From Candidatus Poribacteria bacterium (GTDB lineage Bacteria > Poribacteria > WGA-4E > WGA-3G): a stretch of 64,000 nucleotides of DNA. Below the pieces are notes generated by a model. That model saw nothing but the letters and a program-made list of their open reading frames with translations. It had not been told where the DNA came from and ran no database searches. The first letter of the stretch is position 1; the number at the start of each line of letters is the position of its first letter. The stretch covers positions 1-64,000 of the forward strand of contig JAJEEK010000056.1 in NCBI GenBank assembly GCA_022821065.1. Reading direction: 5' to 3'. The translations under genes and the position numbers were made by a program. Of this stretch, positions 19,801 through 62,961 are shown in pieces.

Positions 19801-19838
19801 ATGATACCGCATACCCACTGCCTTTCGTAATTCTTCTT

Positions 19839-19960
19839 TAGGACTTACGCAATTTTGGCTGCAGCTTGTTCTTTTCGATGAGATTTCTCGAAAAACATAG
19901 CGTTCTTGCGGCACAAACTGGGAAGTTTGTGCTACAAAAGAGCAGCATGCGTAAGTCCTA
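19839..19960 (+). mobile_element. MITE-like element copy 2
   Basis: taggacttacgcaattttggctgcagc...cacaaactgggaagtttgtgctaca...gcatgcgtaagtccta. Confidence 0.8.
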
Positions 19961-20108
19961 TTCTTATTAAGTGGAAGGATTAGCCTTTCGTCAATTTTAA
20001 ACTTAAGAGCAGGTTCGTAGTAATACAATTTTGCGACGTACTCGTCCAAATATGGAGGGCATTCACGTCAAGAACGGGCAATGAATTGCCCTACTACAAA
20101 CAGTTTCC

Positions 20109-20280: not shown

Positions 20281-20383
20281 ATAAACATTCCGTCGCTACG
20301 CGACTGAAGCGGTTTTTGAAGGAAACTTCAAGGCTTCTATGTAGAATCCGGTTCGGTTACAAACCAAACCTACCGGGACCGGG
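20281..20383 (+). repeat. dispersed copy of the unit at 851-950
   Basis: ataaacattccgtcgctacgcgactgaagcggtttttgaag...gtagaatccggttcggttacaaaccaaacctaccgggacc. Confidence 0.8.
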
Positions 20384-20817
20384 TCTGAGAAGGTTGCTAT
20401 TGCTAAAATTGACACTACTTGTTAGGGATGAGGAAAATTACCGATTCAAACACTGAAACTTCATCCTACCTCGTCCTTATTATTTCCCTGTTTTCTTCTT
20501 AGTAGAGTATAGCGATTGGAAAATCGTGCCTGCCAATTCGTGTTTCCCCCAAAAAAATTGTTGACGTCTACCGGTGTATTTGTTAGTGTATACTTATAGT
20601 AAAATTTAGAATTATGTAGACACTTAATCCGTTAACAAATATCCGTTTGTAGTAGGACAATTTATTCCCTGTCGCGCCAAGAATTGCCCTGATATTTTCA
20701 GATTTTAGCATAATTTTAAAAATTGAGGACTAATGCTGTTGCCAAAATACTGACGTGGTTGCAATTCGCCACCTTAGGATTGCTACACGCCAAAAATAGA
20801 AAAGGGGAGAAAACTGA

Positions 20818-23131: not shown

Positions 23132-23170
23132 AATCCGGTTCGGTTGCAAACCGAACCTACCGGACCTGGG
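23132..23170 (+). repeat. CCGGTTCGGTT-gca-AACCGAACCTACCGG hairpin repeat
   Basis: aatccggttcggttgcaaaccgaacctaccggacctggg. Confidence 0.8.
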
Positions 23171-23208
23171 TCCGAGATGTTTATTTTTTTTTAAATTGAC
23201 GCTTATGG

Positions 23209-26400: not shown

Positions 26401-27618
26401 GCATTTTTTCCGCGCGGATCTGGCGATTACCAAGATTTTTTCCCTGTTACGCTGGGGCAAGGCAAAAATGTTTTATTCGTCGCACTTGACAATCATGGAC
26501 ATGGTAGCTTTAGCGGATTTTTTGGATTCGCACCCGACACAAAATATGCTGTGTTCAATCCGAGTATCAGGTTTGTCTTTTCTATAGAAACAACGCACTT
26601 TGAAGTTGGAGATACGTTCACGCTGCATCTCGATGGAGAAAATGTTTCTAATTTAGGTGGGTGGCAATCTGATATAACCTTTAATCCGGCAGTACTAAAA
26701 GCGAATCAGGTAACCGAAGGCGATTTTCTGAAGCAAAATGAGGGAGATACCTTCTTTCAAACGGGTACAATCAATAATAAAACGGGTAAAATCACCGGTT
26801 TAAAAACAGTACGACTTTCGCGAGATAGGGTAGGGCGACAAGGTAGGCTGTTCTCGGTAGAATTTACCGCCATCGGAAATGGTGAAAGCCGATTAACGCT
26901 GGCTAACTTTCAGGCGGGTTCTCAAAGAGGCGAAACAATCCCTGTTATCCCGCCCGAACTGAGCATTGCTGTCGGTCCCGATGAACCTACCGGACCGGCG
27001 TGGGATGTGAATTCCGATGGGATTACGAACGTTTTGGATCTGATTCTCGTGGCACAACACTTGGGTGAAGATGCGTCCGCTAACCCGCAATCTGACGTCA
27101 ACGGCGACGGCACGATTAATGTCTTAGACCTGATCGTTGTCGCACAACATTTAGGGGAATCAACCAACGCCGCCGCACCTGCCAACCTTGCCATAGAAAG
27201 TTTGGAATTGGAGCCAGCAACGCTTCAATCTTGGATCGCGCAGGCAGAGGTTGCGAATGACGGCTCACTTGCGTTTCAGCACGGAATAGGGAATCTCCAA
27301 CGGCTTTTGGCATCGCTGCTCCCCGAAGAGACAGCGTTGCTGCCGAACTACCCGAACCCGTTCAATCCAGAGACGTGGATACCGTATCATCTTGCGGAGC
27401 CTGCGGATGTCACGGTGCGTATCTATGCTGCAGGAGGTGCGTTAGTGCGGACGTTAGCGTTGGGGCATCAGTCTGCGGGTATCTATGAGAATCGGAGTCG
27501 GGCGGCGTATTGGGATGGCAAGAATGTGTACGGTGAATCTGTGGCGAGTGGTGTCTATTTCTATACGCTTACTGCCGGTGATTTCACAAAGACGCGCAAA
27601 ATGTTGATAAAAAAATAA
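23413..27618 (+). CDS. secreted multidomain protein: cytochrome c-like, LRR, unclassified middle domain, cohesin-like, dockerin-like, FlgD-like C-terminus
   Basis: two CxxCH sites 'CLGCHGEHG' and 'CIGCHTEGM'; LRRs; 'VFSIETTHFEVGDTFTLHLDGENVSNLGGWQSDITFNPAVLKANQVTEGDFL' cohesin-like; dockerin repeats; 'LLPNYPNPFNPETWIPYHLAEP'. Confidence 0.88.
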   Translation: MKTHKYISLVILTFVILGFSTAHAQDNLAQEVYTIFQQNCLGCHGEHGAFTEDLIIDRAALIASGTIVPRNPNASAFLTRLIEDTPTKPRMPWGLPALSDDAIETIRRWIQAGAPDWEVQYDVDFITTDTMLGTIQAHLGTLSAFDRPFARYFTLTHLYNAGESPEALDAYKIALSKLVNSLSWGFEIINPQPIDLGETIFYVDLRDYEWDIRNEAWTQIEREYPYSIAFNPETQAGLHEKLVTLREEMDCEVPFVHVDWFLANASLPPLYHEILDLPETDRELERELSIDVERNLQSAPGVRVWRAGFNDSGVSNNNRVVERHTSRYGAYWKSYDFAGSVGTQNIFTHPLSFEADGGEVVFNLPNGLQGYYISDASGNRIDEAPTDIVSNPAASNPAVRNGLSCIGCHTEGMKTFEDEVRAVIVQGPDGPTKDQGLRLYVEQSVMDALVAEDTERYREALEATGGVFGGIEPVHRFYEEYQGPVDAAHAAAAVGLETEVFLQEISDKQRLRSLGLAGLLDGGDVSRDAWTSSFTEVISALNSPDDTVTPPVDPGADLRPGDLVTIPDPNLRTVIEAALGKAPRALITAADMARLTRLDADDAGIGNLTGLEAATQLERIEFRHNTISDLSPLRGLIRLNNIKLRGNRITDVSPLAGLINVDWLGLEENEITDLSPLKDLIKLTGIGISSNPVSDVSPLASLISLERINAWNTPISDFSTLANARRLRWIEFGNNRAITALPSLKGLKTLRRLEVHNCSISDLTALAELTQLEWLELINNLISDISPLRNLRGLEHLNLDANVISDVSPLAQLTRLELLYLENNVIWDVSPLVDLTNLERLDLRNNSVSDFSFLEGLPDETFVRMEGNPGFPSGGKKITGPWLWAIVPGTRLDERTDFLARATRGAATEIKVATNGAKEGKAVGNSMWTLHSLSATGGNNINRMTDALGWGTGSEIYDHTVYGSVVLDSPEEQQTTMFVGSSDAVKVWLNGELVHQAFFPRGSGDYQDFFPVTLGQGKNVLFVALDNHGHGSFSGFFGFAPDTKYAVFNPSIRFVFSIETTHFEVGDTFTLHLDGENVSNLGGWQSDITFNPAVLKANQVTEGDFLKQNEGDTFFQTGTINNKTGKITGLKTVRLSRDRVGRQGRLFSVEFTAIGNGESRLTLANFQAGSQRGETIPVIPPELSIAVGPDEPTGPAWDVNSDGITNVLDLILVAQHLGEDASANPQSDVNGDGTINVLDLIVVAQHLGESTNAAAPANLAIESLELEPATLQSWIAQAEVANDGSLAFQHGIGNLQRLLASLLPEETALLPNYPNPFNPETWIPYHLAEPADVTVRIYAAGGALVRTLALGHQSAGIYENRSRAAYWDGKNVYGESVASGVYFYTLTAGDFTKTRKMLIKK

Positions 27619-27834
27619 GATGTTTAATTCCTCAAAAAATAGACAGATTCCAATCTATCCTACAATATCGTCTCCAAAACTCTGGACATCTGACGATTTT
27701 TATGATATTCTATGCCAAGAAAGATACGACTATTCATCGCAAATTTGAGAAAGCTGCCTCGCGTATGAAAGAAAGTGCTTCTGAACCCTGTTCACACATT
27801 CAGATCAGCGATGTTCCTTTGATTACAGTAACAC

Positions 27835-27955
27835 AGGACTTACGCAATTTTTGATTGTAGGTGGTTGTGGTAAATGAAATTTTTCGGAAAACACAGCGTT
27901 CTGGCAGCACAAACTAACAGTTTGTGGTACAAAAGAGCATCATACGTAAGTCCTA
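27835..27955 (+). mobile_element. MITE-like element copy 3, flanked by AGTAACA on both sides
   Basis: agtaaca-c-aggacttacgca...cacaaactaacagtttgtg...tacgtaagtcct-a-agtaaca. Confidence 0.85.
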
Positions 27956-27969
27956 AGTAACAATCTAAC

Positions 27970-28050
27970 ATGGCCATCAATTACAGTCGGTTACGTTCAC
28001 TTAGAGCACGAAAATTGATACGCGCTTTGAAAAAAGATGGTTTTTATGAA
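27970..28050 (+). pseudogene. HicA-like toxin N-terminal remnant
   Basis: hand translation MAINYSRLRSLRARKLIRALKKDGFYEERS resembles the HicA N-terminus; remainder absent, runs into the alcohol dehydrogenase start. Confidence 0.5.
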
Positions 28051-29215
28051 GAAAGAAGCAACAACATTAACACTCCCACCCACAATAATTACAGGTGCAG
28101 GGGCATCCGAGAACGTCGGTGAACAGGCGCAACGGCTGAGCGCGACGAGCGCACTCATCGTAACCGATCCGGGAATCGCCAAAATCGGATATGCCGATAA
28201 GATTGCCCAAAATTTACACGCTGCTGGAATCCGGACGACCTGCTTCTCCGATGTTACACCCGATCCGACTTTACAGAACGTGCAAGACGGACGCAAGCAA
28301 TACACTGATGAAGCATGCGACCTGATTGTGAGTGTCGGGGGTGGCAGCGCGATTGACTGCGGCAAAGGCATCGCCATGAAACTGACCAACGATGGCGATT
28401 TTGCCGATTACATGGGCGTTGATAAAGTTCCGAATCCGGGGGCCCCCTTGATTGCAATACCGACGACAGGCGGTACAGGCAGCGAAGTCTCCAAAGTTAC
28501 CGTTATCACCGACACCGATCGGAATGTCAAGATGATGCTCAGTAGTGTGTGTCTATTGGCACACGTTGCGATTGTGGATCCTATGCTGTCGCTCACAACG
28601 CCACCGCATCTAACGGCGGCGGTCGGCGTTGACGCTTTGACACACGCGATAGAGGCGTACATCTCCAAACGCGCGCAACCCATCACGGACGCACTCGCAT
28701 TGAAGGCAGTTGAGATGATTTCCGGGTCGCTACGGCAGGCGTGGGCAGATGGCGAAAACATCTCCGCACGCACGGATATGATGATCGGTGCATCTATCGC
28801 AGGGATGGCGTTCAGTAATTCCTCTGTGGCACTGGTTCACGGGATGTCGCGTCCGATCGGTGCGTATTTCCATGTTCATCACGGGTTGTCCAACTCGGTG
28901 CTGCTACGCGATGTGATGGCATTCAGTGTCGTCGGCGCGCCGGCGCGCTTCGCAGATATTGCCCGTGCGATGGGTGAACAGATTGACGGATTATCGCCTA
29001 TGCAGCAAGCAGACGCAGCGGTTGGTGCTGTTGAAAGGCTCGTCACCGATATTCAGATGCCGCGACTCGGCGAAATTGATAAAATTGACAAACAAAAATT
29101 CGAGGACGTTATTGAGCAGATGGCAGCGGATGCCATCGCAAGCGGGAGTCCTGCGAACAATCCGAGGCAGGCGACTGCTGAAGATATCGTTGCCCTATAT
29201 CGTCAGTGTTTTTAA
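28037..29215 (+). CDS. iron-containing alcohol dehydrogenase
   Basis: 'LIVSVGGGSAIDCGKGIAM', 'PTTGGTGSEVSKVTVITD', 'ALVHGMSRPIGAYFHVHHGLSNSVLLRDVM'. Confidence 0.93.
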   Translation: MVFMKKEATTLTLPPTIITGAGASENVGEQAQRLSATSALIVTDPGIAKIGYADKIAQNLHAAGIRTTCFSDVTPDPTLQNVQDGRKQYTDEACDLIVSVGGGSAIDCGKGIAMKLTNDGDFADYMGVDKVPNPGAPLIAIPTTGGTGSEVSKVTVITDTDRNVKMMLSSVCLLAHVAIVDPMLSLTTPPHLTAAVGVDALTHAIEAYISKRAQPITDALALKAVEMISGSLRQAWADGENISARTDMMIGASIAGMAFSNSSVALVHGMSRPIGAYFHVHHGLSNSVLLRDVMAFSVVGAPARFADIARAMGEQIDGLSPMQQADAAVGAVERLVTDIQMPRLGEIDKIDKQKFEDVIEQMAADAIASGSPANNPRQATAEDIVALYRQCF

Positions 29216-59126: not shown

Positions 59127-59424
59127 TTATTTCTCCTTGTAGGCGAAGGATCGCGTCAAAGTTGTCATTTTTTGAGGTTTTGTTATTTTTTTCTATCCCG
59201 CACATTGTGCAGCGGTGTGTGAGGATATAATTACCGTGCTTTACGGTAAAGCCTACCGGTTTCATTAAACCGTGGCAGGTTGCGGAGCGGTCGCCGGGGT
59301 TGACATCGACGTGTTGACTCCAGAGACATTCTGGACAGTGGTTGGTGTAGCCGTTGCCTTTAACAACAGCACCACACTGTGTGCAGGTAAAATCTTCAAC
59401 GTGGCGTTGGAATTTTTTGTTCAC
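59119..59424 (-). CDS. RNHCP domain protein
   Basis: 'FTCTQCGAVVKGNGYTNHCPECLWSQHVDVNPGDRSATCHGLMKPVGF'. Confidence 0.92.
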   Translation of the reverse strand: MNKKFQRHVEDFTCTQCGAVVKGNGYTNHCPECLWSQHVDVNPGDRSATCHGLMKPVGFTVKHGNYILTHRCTMCGIEKNNKTSKNDNFDAILRLQGEINA

Positions 59425-59690
59425 TGGTCAGTGCTCATATTTTTGGCTTGTGCGAGTCGGTCTAATGTCCGTTTTAGACTTGGCGACACCGAGGCGGCGC
59501 GTTCTAAATTCCAGTGACTTTGAACGAATTCGCTCAAAAGCGTATTATATTGATTGCCCACGCTGAGTGTTGCCCCTTGTGTCGGCACCAATGCTTCACG
59601 AATCACTTTCTTTCCACTTCTTCGGGCAAGCGATATAAGAAACTCTTTGGGGTTCAAGATATCGTCTGTTGGTGATGGAATTCGATGCAA
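59421..59690 (-). CDS. short protein, possibly C-terminal remnant of a DUF4276-like protein
   Basis: 'NPKEFLISLARRSGKKVIREALVPTQGATLSVGNQYNTLLSEFVQSHWNLERAASVSPSLKRTLDRL'; TTG start, stop codon only four codons upstream in frame. Confidence 0.4.
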   Translation of the reverse strand: MHRIPSPTDDILNPKEFLISLARRSGKKVIREALVPTQGATLSVGNQYNTLLSEFVQSHWNLERAASVSPSLKRTLDRLAQAKNMSTDQ

Positions 59691-59705
59691 CGGAGTTGGT
59701 TATGC

Positions 59706-60857
59706 TCATTCTGGTAAAACCAACCCTCCAATATGTTTAGGGTGGGTTTGGGGGAGTACAACTTCACCTACTGTAAACCCATTCTTAAGAAGCACACACA
59801 CATCATCAAAATCAGAGGAAGGTTTGACTACTGTTCCCTCTTTGCTGGGTATGAGCAAAAGCACTTCTCTCCCATCAATACCTGGTTCTATAAGTAGCAC
59901 ATCGCTTTGTGTACTAACCAACACCTGAGATCTTCGACTTCTTTGCAAGCGAGAAATAGAAGGCGCGAGTTGAGAAACAATGCCGATATTTAAAGAGAGT
60001 TCCGGTTCCTCTAATAATACTATGGAGTCGTTTTCAAGGAGAGACCACAAGAGTCCAATAAGTCGAAGCACTCCATCCGAAAATTGGTCTTCGCAATGCC
60101 CTTCTTCGGTCGGGTGCCAGTGGGAATAACGCGCTCGTAAATGTGGCCGTCCTATTTTGTCACGAATAAATTCCAATTTTTCAAACTGCGGGACAGCGAT
60201 TTTGAGGGTATGCTCAATCCTTTTGAGACGAGCCCGGCGGGTACTTGGATGCACGCCCGCGACGCGTTCGAGGAAAGCCTGACCAAACGGATCGTCTTCG
60301 ATAACTTTACCTTGAATGGCATCCCCGAAACGGATGAGTTGTGGCACGAGATGCAGATAGGTAACATTACGAAGGAATCGCCCAATCTCCCGAAACTTCG
60401 CATTGGCAGCATTCTGTTCAAGTGCGGTCTGGATAAGGCGGTCTGGATCTGCGTTATCGTCTGCATCGGGTCTATCAAGAAGGCGTTCGCCCTCTCTCCA
60501 GACGCGCTCATGGCTGAGAAGCGTTTGGCAATGTTCACGATCTGCTTGACGGAATCCGAGACTGTATCGCCATGTTGCGGGGGCATCTGGCGTATCGGCG
60601 ATGTGAATTTCGATAGAAACCTCTGGGTCTTGCCTCGCGGACAAGCATCGAATTTTGGAGACACCACCTCGGTCACCGATCGCTTTTTGGAGTCCGCCCC
60701 CTTCGGCTTTGGCGATATCGCGGAGAAAGCGAAAGATGTCTAACAGGTTGGATTTACCTGAGGCATTCGGACCGACGATAAACTGACGTTCCCTAAGTGG
60801 CACATCAATATGCTGAAAGTTCCGCCAGTTTTTGACGATAAGCCGATTGATAATCAT
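59706..60857 (-). CDS. AAA family ATPase (RecF/OLD-like)
   Basis: 'MIINRLIVKNWRNFQHIDVPLRERQFIVGPNASGKSNLLDIFRFL', 'SDGVLRLIGLLWSLLENDSIVLLEEPELSLN'. Confidence 0.9.
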   Translation of the reverse strand: MIINRLIVKNWRNFQHIDVPLRERQFIVGPNASGKSNLLDIFRFLRDIAKAEGGGLQKAIGDRGGVSKIRCLSARQDPEVSIEIHIADTPDAPATWRYSLGFRQADREHCQTLLSHERVWREGERLLDRPDADDNADPDRLIQTALEQNAANAKFREIGRFLRNVTYLHLVPQLIRFGDAIQGKVIEDDPFGQAFLERVAGVHPSTRRARLKRIEHTLKIAVPQFEKLEFIRDKIGRPHLRARYSHWHPTEEGHCEDQFSDGVLRLIGLLWSLLENDSIVLLEEPELSLNIGIVSQLAPSISRLQRSRRSQVLVSTQSDVLLIEPGIDGREVLLLIPSKEGTVVKPSSDFDDVCVLLKNGFTVGEVVLPQTHPKHIGGLVLPE

Positions 60858-62653: not shown

Positions 62654-62826
62654 TTTGATGCATCGCCTTTCGTTAGGATTTGACGCAGTATAGCACGAAA
62701 CGAGAAAAAAAATCAAGGCTTTTAATGTTGCCCTAACGGGAGCTGTTGAGAAGGTTTGGGAAGGCAGCCGCTGTGTTCAAATCCGCCCTTCGCCGTTGTT
62801 GCAGTGCTGCAATCTCTAACCAAGTC

Positions 62827-62945
62827 AGGACTTACGCAATTTTGGGTGTAAATCGCTCTGTTAGATGGAAGTTTTCTGTAAACACAGCGTTCTGATAGCA
62901 CAAACTAACAGTTTGTGGTACAAAAGAGGGGCATGCGTAAGTCCT
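62827..62945 (+). mobile_element. MITE-like element copy 4, flanked by CAAGT
   Basis: caagt-c-aggacttacgcaattttgg...cacaaactaacagtttgtggtaca...gcatgcgtaagtcct-a-caagt. Confidence 0.8.
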
Positions 62946-62961
62946 ACAAGTTTTTAATTTT

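Follow-up and report, generated by a model that had tools for sequence, protein, structure and literature searches.

A family of miniature inverted-repeat elements in Candidatus Poribacteria with ends matching those of an IS701-like insertion sequence

The 64,000-nucleotide stretch of DNA analysed here, referred to below as the window, belongs to a MAG of 5.14 Mb consisting of 124 contigs, and it contains on its forward strand four copies of a short repeat. Copy 1 (2153–2273) extends from C-AGGATTTACGCA to TGCGTAAGTCCT-A and lacks a clear target duplication. Copy 2 (19839–19960), which has the form T-AGGACTTACGCA...TGCGTAAGTCCT-A and matches copies on contigs C84 and C8 at 98–99% identity, is bordered upon comparison of its flanks by TTCTT at 19834–19838 and 19961–19965. 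Copy 3, the focal copy, is located at 27834–27955, and copy 4 (62826–62946; C-AGGACTTACGCA...TGCGTAAGTCCT-A) is similarly flanked by CAAGT at 62821–62825 and 62947–62951. The window copies thus begin with Y-AGGACTTACGCA and finish with TGCGTAAGTCCT-R, single mismatches being present in copies 1 and 3. With one mismatch allowed, the terminal 11-mer was found at eight sites in the window, which are exactly the eight copy ends, whereas 1.0 such site is expected by chance and the maximum observed over 100 shuffles was 4. The original prediction, which was made from the sequence of the window, had described these four copies, their termini, their core and their inner hairpin, and all of these were found as stated, including the exact duplications bordering copies 3 and 4 and the lack of one for copy 1. 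The location of the copies was also as described, but their ends now include the outer Y and R bases, and the duplication of copy 2, earlier read as an imperfect repeat of 8 bp, is present as the 5-bp sequence TTCTT. Similarly, a shared orientation of the copies holds within the window, but both orientations are found genome-wide.

The focal copy is inserted at a hicB/hicA-like junction (locus 27582–28110). The comparison of its flanks revealed AGTAACA on both sides, at 27827–27833 and 27956–27962. Its left terminal inverted repeat, AGGACTTACGCA, occupies 27835–27846 on the plus strand and the right one, which has one mismatch and reads TACGTAAGTCCT on the plus strand, lies on the minus strand at 27943–27954; between them the inner hairpin CACAAACT-AAC-AGTTTGTG is found at 27908–27926 (plus strand). 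In the sister genomes, a hicB-like ORF terminates at this site (as ...VTI stop or ...ITV stop), and hicA comes next. This hicA matches the Pfam family HicA_toxin with 52.9 bits (cut-off 27), and the name hicB is based upon the position of this ORF adjoining hicA. In the window, the stop codon of the upstream hicB-like ORF is supplied by copy 3, the ORF now reading ...VTQDLRNF stop at its end, and the hicA gene, too, is truncated. Given this altered ORF end and the truncation of hicA, the locus is regarded as a decayed toxin-antitoxin locus, which is intact in the sister genomes. The copies had earlier been placed between genes, and this is true for most of them, but copy 3 lies within the last codons of the decayed hicB-like ORF.

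The copy number of four given originally applies to the window only, as the host genome contains about 250 copies. A similarity search of the host genome yielded at least 43 matches (40 of 290 first-look candidates were scored), and, when a single mismatch is tolerated, its terminal repeat occurs at 537 sites in comparison to 29 for a reversed control pattern. As 15 elements and 32 terminal sites were present in 454 kb of survey sequence, the genome-wide number of terminal sites scales to an estimate of about 250 elements. A gapped pattern that spanned the entire element and required exact ends recovered only one copy, the interior being longer than the allowed gap range. Most copies are 118–124 bp in length, which is too short for a transposase and agrees with the earlier statement that they encode nothing. 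Their terminal inverted repeats are 12–13 bp long, with base pairs that are kept in 78–83 of 83 copies. The element was found in 23 of the 24 genomes from the same genus, counting the host, and was absent from the 16 genomes taken from outside it; a search of the source genome and its relatives had been proposed as a check, and it revealed high copy numbers in both the host and its sister species. Pairwise identities over 83 aligned copies have a median of 82% and a maximum of 99%, old and recent copies being present together, and the presence of 98–99% identical copies at unlinked sites with perfect duplications indicates that movement has been fairly recent. An 81-bp element on contig C15 (L065:685–765) has AGGACTTACGCA ends and a TGTAA duplication together with a different interior, AACCCCCTAAATCCCCCTTAATCAGGGGG, and it appears to represent a second subfamily. 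A unit of about 1 kb on contig C20 (L063) was also considered as a transposon; it was rejected, since it consists of an unrelated gene (putatively YggS-like, as judged by eye) situated between two separate elements of this family.

Target duplications were examined by comparing the flanks of 89 distinct full-length copies from the host and sister genomes, one outer base being trimmed from each side. An exact duplication of 5–9 bp was observed in 59 of these copies (5 bp in 51 and 6–9 bp in eight), whereas about 1.3 duplications of at least 5 bp are expected from shuffled flanks. The target 5-mers are AT-rich, with T the commonest first base and A the commonest last base. For the other 30 of the 89 copies an exact duplication of at least 5 bp was not found, as might be expected of old copies. 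It had been proposed that transposition would lose its support if the duplications vanished when more copies were considered; they persist across this larger sample. Empty sites in sister genomes, which had been suggested as a further check, were found with base precision. For copy 3 such a site is present in at least seven sister genomes (G001, G009, G014, G006, G005, G011, and G016), where the two flanks of the element, joined with one AGTAACA, align without gaps over about 165 bp to the hicB/hicA junctions. A second empty site corresponds to the copy on contig C17 (L080), for which a single TTATA is present in G004. For copy 4, the orthologous intergenic space is without the element in the aligned sister genomes, the intergenic alignment being too diverged for base precision.

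A full-length insertion sequence (IS) sharing these terminal inverted repeats, whose existence had been raised as a possible check, was found both in the host genome and in its relatives. The intact host copy is located on contig C23 (G000:C23, about 59216–60303) and measures 1088 bp between its AGGACTTACGCA terminal repeats; its outermost 13 bp, YAGGACTTACGCA / TGCGTAAGTCCTR, are identical to those of the short element. It encodes a transposase of 346 aa that matches the NCBIfam model NF049921 (IS701 family transposase) with 369.5 bits (cut-off 250) and also the Pfam families DDE_Tnp_1 and DDE_5; with the other IS701 model, NF033540, it scored 79.7 bits, which is below the cut-off of 150. This copy carries the only full and intact transposase with these ends that was found in the assembly, and it has no recognisable target duplication itself. 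All close relatives of the transposase in the GTDB collection are from Candidatus Poribacteria MAGs, which places the host, a sponge symbiont, in this lineage. The poribacterial relatives with 61–86% identical transposases have the same ends as the C23 IS. Nearly all IS copies are 1085–1089 bp long, and 21 of 28 copies, many of them from one chromosome, are bordered by a duplicated target (5 bp in 14, 6 bp in six, and 7 bp in one). The ends read AGGACTTTCGCT in more remote relatives from Chloroflexi, Chthonomonas, and Woesearchaeota, and AGGAGTTACGCA ends occur in some genomes from other families of the Poribacteria order. As the ends and the transposase clade change together, the short element is assigned to the C23-type IS. 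The repeat is mobile, present in many copies and target-duplicating, and it has its ends in common with an IS. The interpretation as a miniature inverted-repeat transposable element (MITE) put forward originally is supported by the copy number, the IS with matching ends, the duplications, and the empty sites, and these elements are a new family of this known kind. Two further observations concern the IS. A 430-bp copy in L148 (JAJDXV010000052.1, 2456–2886) is internally deleted with both ends kept, and it is possibly an intermediate toward non-autonomous forms. In G008, many contigs end inside fragments of an IS701-like gene (67–72% identity), indicating that a high-copy IS has broken the assembly.

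The best explanation for these results, in which we have high confidence, is that the repeat is a MITE moved by cut-and-paste, with an IS701-like transposase acting in trans; we infer this mobilisation in trans from the matching ends and the duplication length. The DDE transposase of the IS701-like element of about 1.09 kb would bind the ends of the MITE, excise it and insert it elsewhere with a 5-nt stagger; the target that is duplicated is AT-rich and 5 bp, rarely 6–7 bp or more, in length. The MITE carries no gene, and its interior, the conserved core and the hairpin, is most likely DNA unrelated to the IS that lies between captured ends. The two have nothing in common past the 13–14 terminal bases, and the interior gave only chance-level matches with the IS and all other sequence examined, except for copies of the hairpin (an array in G005, described below, and a few hairpin-like pieces). 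Given this lack of similarity to the IS in its interior, the MITE does not appear to have arisen from this element by deletion.

The limitation of the common sequence to 13–14 bp would also be consistent with movement of the MITE by a different transposase that uses this terminal repeat, as would the genomes G016 and G020, which have many MITEs yet no detected transposase of the C23 clade; this could result from incompleteness of the MAGs or from loss of the gene. However, in the terminal-repeat scan, covering 454 kb of the genome and further stretches, the C23 IS was the sole gene-bearing unit of about 1 kb with these ends, and both the ends of the MITE and its duplication length agree with the IS701-like clade, so that another source of transposase is quite improbable. 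The abundance of other palindromic repeats in this genome and the MITE copies that lack a duplication could alternatively suggest that the copies are spacer repeats, either REP-like or recombination sites, which are old and have been passed on vertically at syntenic positions. Hardly any credence can be given to this proposal, as the sites corresponding to copies 3 and 4 lack the element in sister genomes, with base precision for copy 3, at whose site the proposal is refuted, and as duplications border 59 of 89 copies rather than the 1.3 or so expected.

Mobilisation by the IS701-like transposase also has to be weighed against the possibility that the repeat functions primarily as a structured RNA (an sRNA, a riboswitch-like leader or a transcription attenuator) that has spread, in which case its core would be the hairpin CACAAACT-nnn-AGTTTGTG. 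The single-strand folding is far stronger than that of shuffled sequences on both strands (z −4.0 to −8.0), and double changes are seen in two of the eight stem pairs, one from A-T to G-C and the other from A-T to G-C, T-A, and C-G. Additionally, among 47 copies between co-directional genes, 33 are oriented against and 14 along the gene direction (p = 0.008), these being drawn from 64 copies with usable context that were sampled non-randomly and with genes called by a simple greedy rule. However, the good folding of both strands follows from the palindromic nature of the element, which is common to all MITEs, and in 24 of 83 copies one of the stem pairs is disrupted, reading C-A. The Rfam search of positions 27700–28100 gave no match up to E = 1, the four copies in the window adjoin unrelated genes, and it is the whole terminal-repeat element that spreads, as is evident from its precise empty sites and its target duplications. 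A primary role as RNA is thus very unlikely, and the earlier suggestion of a structured RNA or recombination function for the hairpin becomes, given the lack of an Rfam match and weak covariation, a minor rival. The inner hairpin belongs to the conserved portion of the element, and a structured-RNA role for it is not supported; the stem changes and the orientation bias point toward a secondary role but do not amount to evidence for it. Three observations, namely the compensatory stem changes, the tendency of copies to be oriented against flanking genes and the repeated insertion of a second repeat into the hairpin arm, have also led us to consider that the core and hairpin may be kept by selection, the MITE serving as a mobile regulatory cassette or as a landing site into which other palindromic repeats insert, a reading that we regard as unlikely.

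Bacterial MITEs are in some cases derived from or mobilised by insertion sequences, a reported example being MITEAba12 in Acinetobacter. The family described here is like such IS-linked MITEs in being short and non-coding, with terminal inverted repeats, target duplications, many copies and the ends of an autonomous IS, but it differs from them in its IS701-like partner, its Poribacteria host, its 5-bp duplication, and the nested hairpin in its interior. In our literature search, no paper was found that joins Poribacteria with miniature inverted-repeat elements, or that deals with nonautonomous bacterial MITEs together with IS701, and looking for the terminal sequence in full texts led only to one Vibrio paper on an unrelated subject. 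The IS701 family is characterized by 4-bp direct repeats and a length of 1400–1550 bp (PMC2266710, 2008, "IS4 family goes genomic"). Although the partner transposase resembles this family in scoring well over the cut-off of NF049921, the Poribacteria IS is only about 1.09 kb long and duplicates 5–7 bp. This duplication and length, unlike those of classical IS701 elements, suggest that the partner belongs to a divergent IS701-like clade of its own, which is set apart from the classical 4-bp elements by its 5-bp duplication. In comparison to REP/RAYT repeats, the MITE hairpin is similar to the many other GTA...TAC palindromes in the genome, but in the survey sequence it occurs almost only within the MITE, and the unit that moves is the terminal-repeat element with target duplications. 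A MITE dependent on an IS701-like transposon is a "parasite of a parasite," and elements of this type are ordinary; the present family provides a clean and full case, comprising MITE, partner IS, duplications, and empty sites, from an uncultured phylum. It also illustrates that a single-copy IS701-like element can coexist with a non-autonomous family of hundreds, and its approximately 250 copies can be used as strain markers and as rearrangement points in sponge symbionts.

Several other repeats were observed in and around the MITE. In six MITE copies, viz. those in L066 (C12), L041/L067 (C2), L040 (C2), L045 (C4), L068 (C6), and L070 (C19), a second short repeat, TGCGGCGTACT...GATGCGAAGTGCATC, is inserted at the same point of the hairpin, AGTTT^GTG, with three insertions in each orientation and without target duplication. 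Units like this second repeat also interrupt other palindromes, e.g., at position 20032 of the window, and its pattern of insertion resembles that of a mini-element which targets hairpins in a site-specific manner. As the source of the second repeat, the IS200/IS605-type (Y1) transposases encoded in the genome were considered and rejected, the repeats flanking them being different. The window contains, at 769–812, 1023–1065, and 2309–2375, repeats of the form GAAGAAACACCGTTTTTGCTGGGGCGTTT, which match those flanking Y1 (RAYT-type) transposase genes at G000:C2 and C121 (L314, L315) and are probably REP elements of this transposase. Further palindromic repeats, AATCCGGTTCGGTTNCAAACCGAACCTACCGG, GTAGGGGCTGGGTNACCCAGCCCCTAC, and CCCCCCATATCCCCCCGCATGCGGGGGG, are scattered through the genome, palindromes of this kind being located in the window at 911–982, 20345–20416, and 23132–23203 and also in the survey sequence from C7/C4. 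Lastly, in G005 (L190, 977–1208), a tandem array with a period of about 103 bp consists of units that carry the MITE hairpin (26 bp, 88–96% identical), and a MITE copy adjoins this array.
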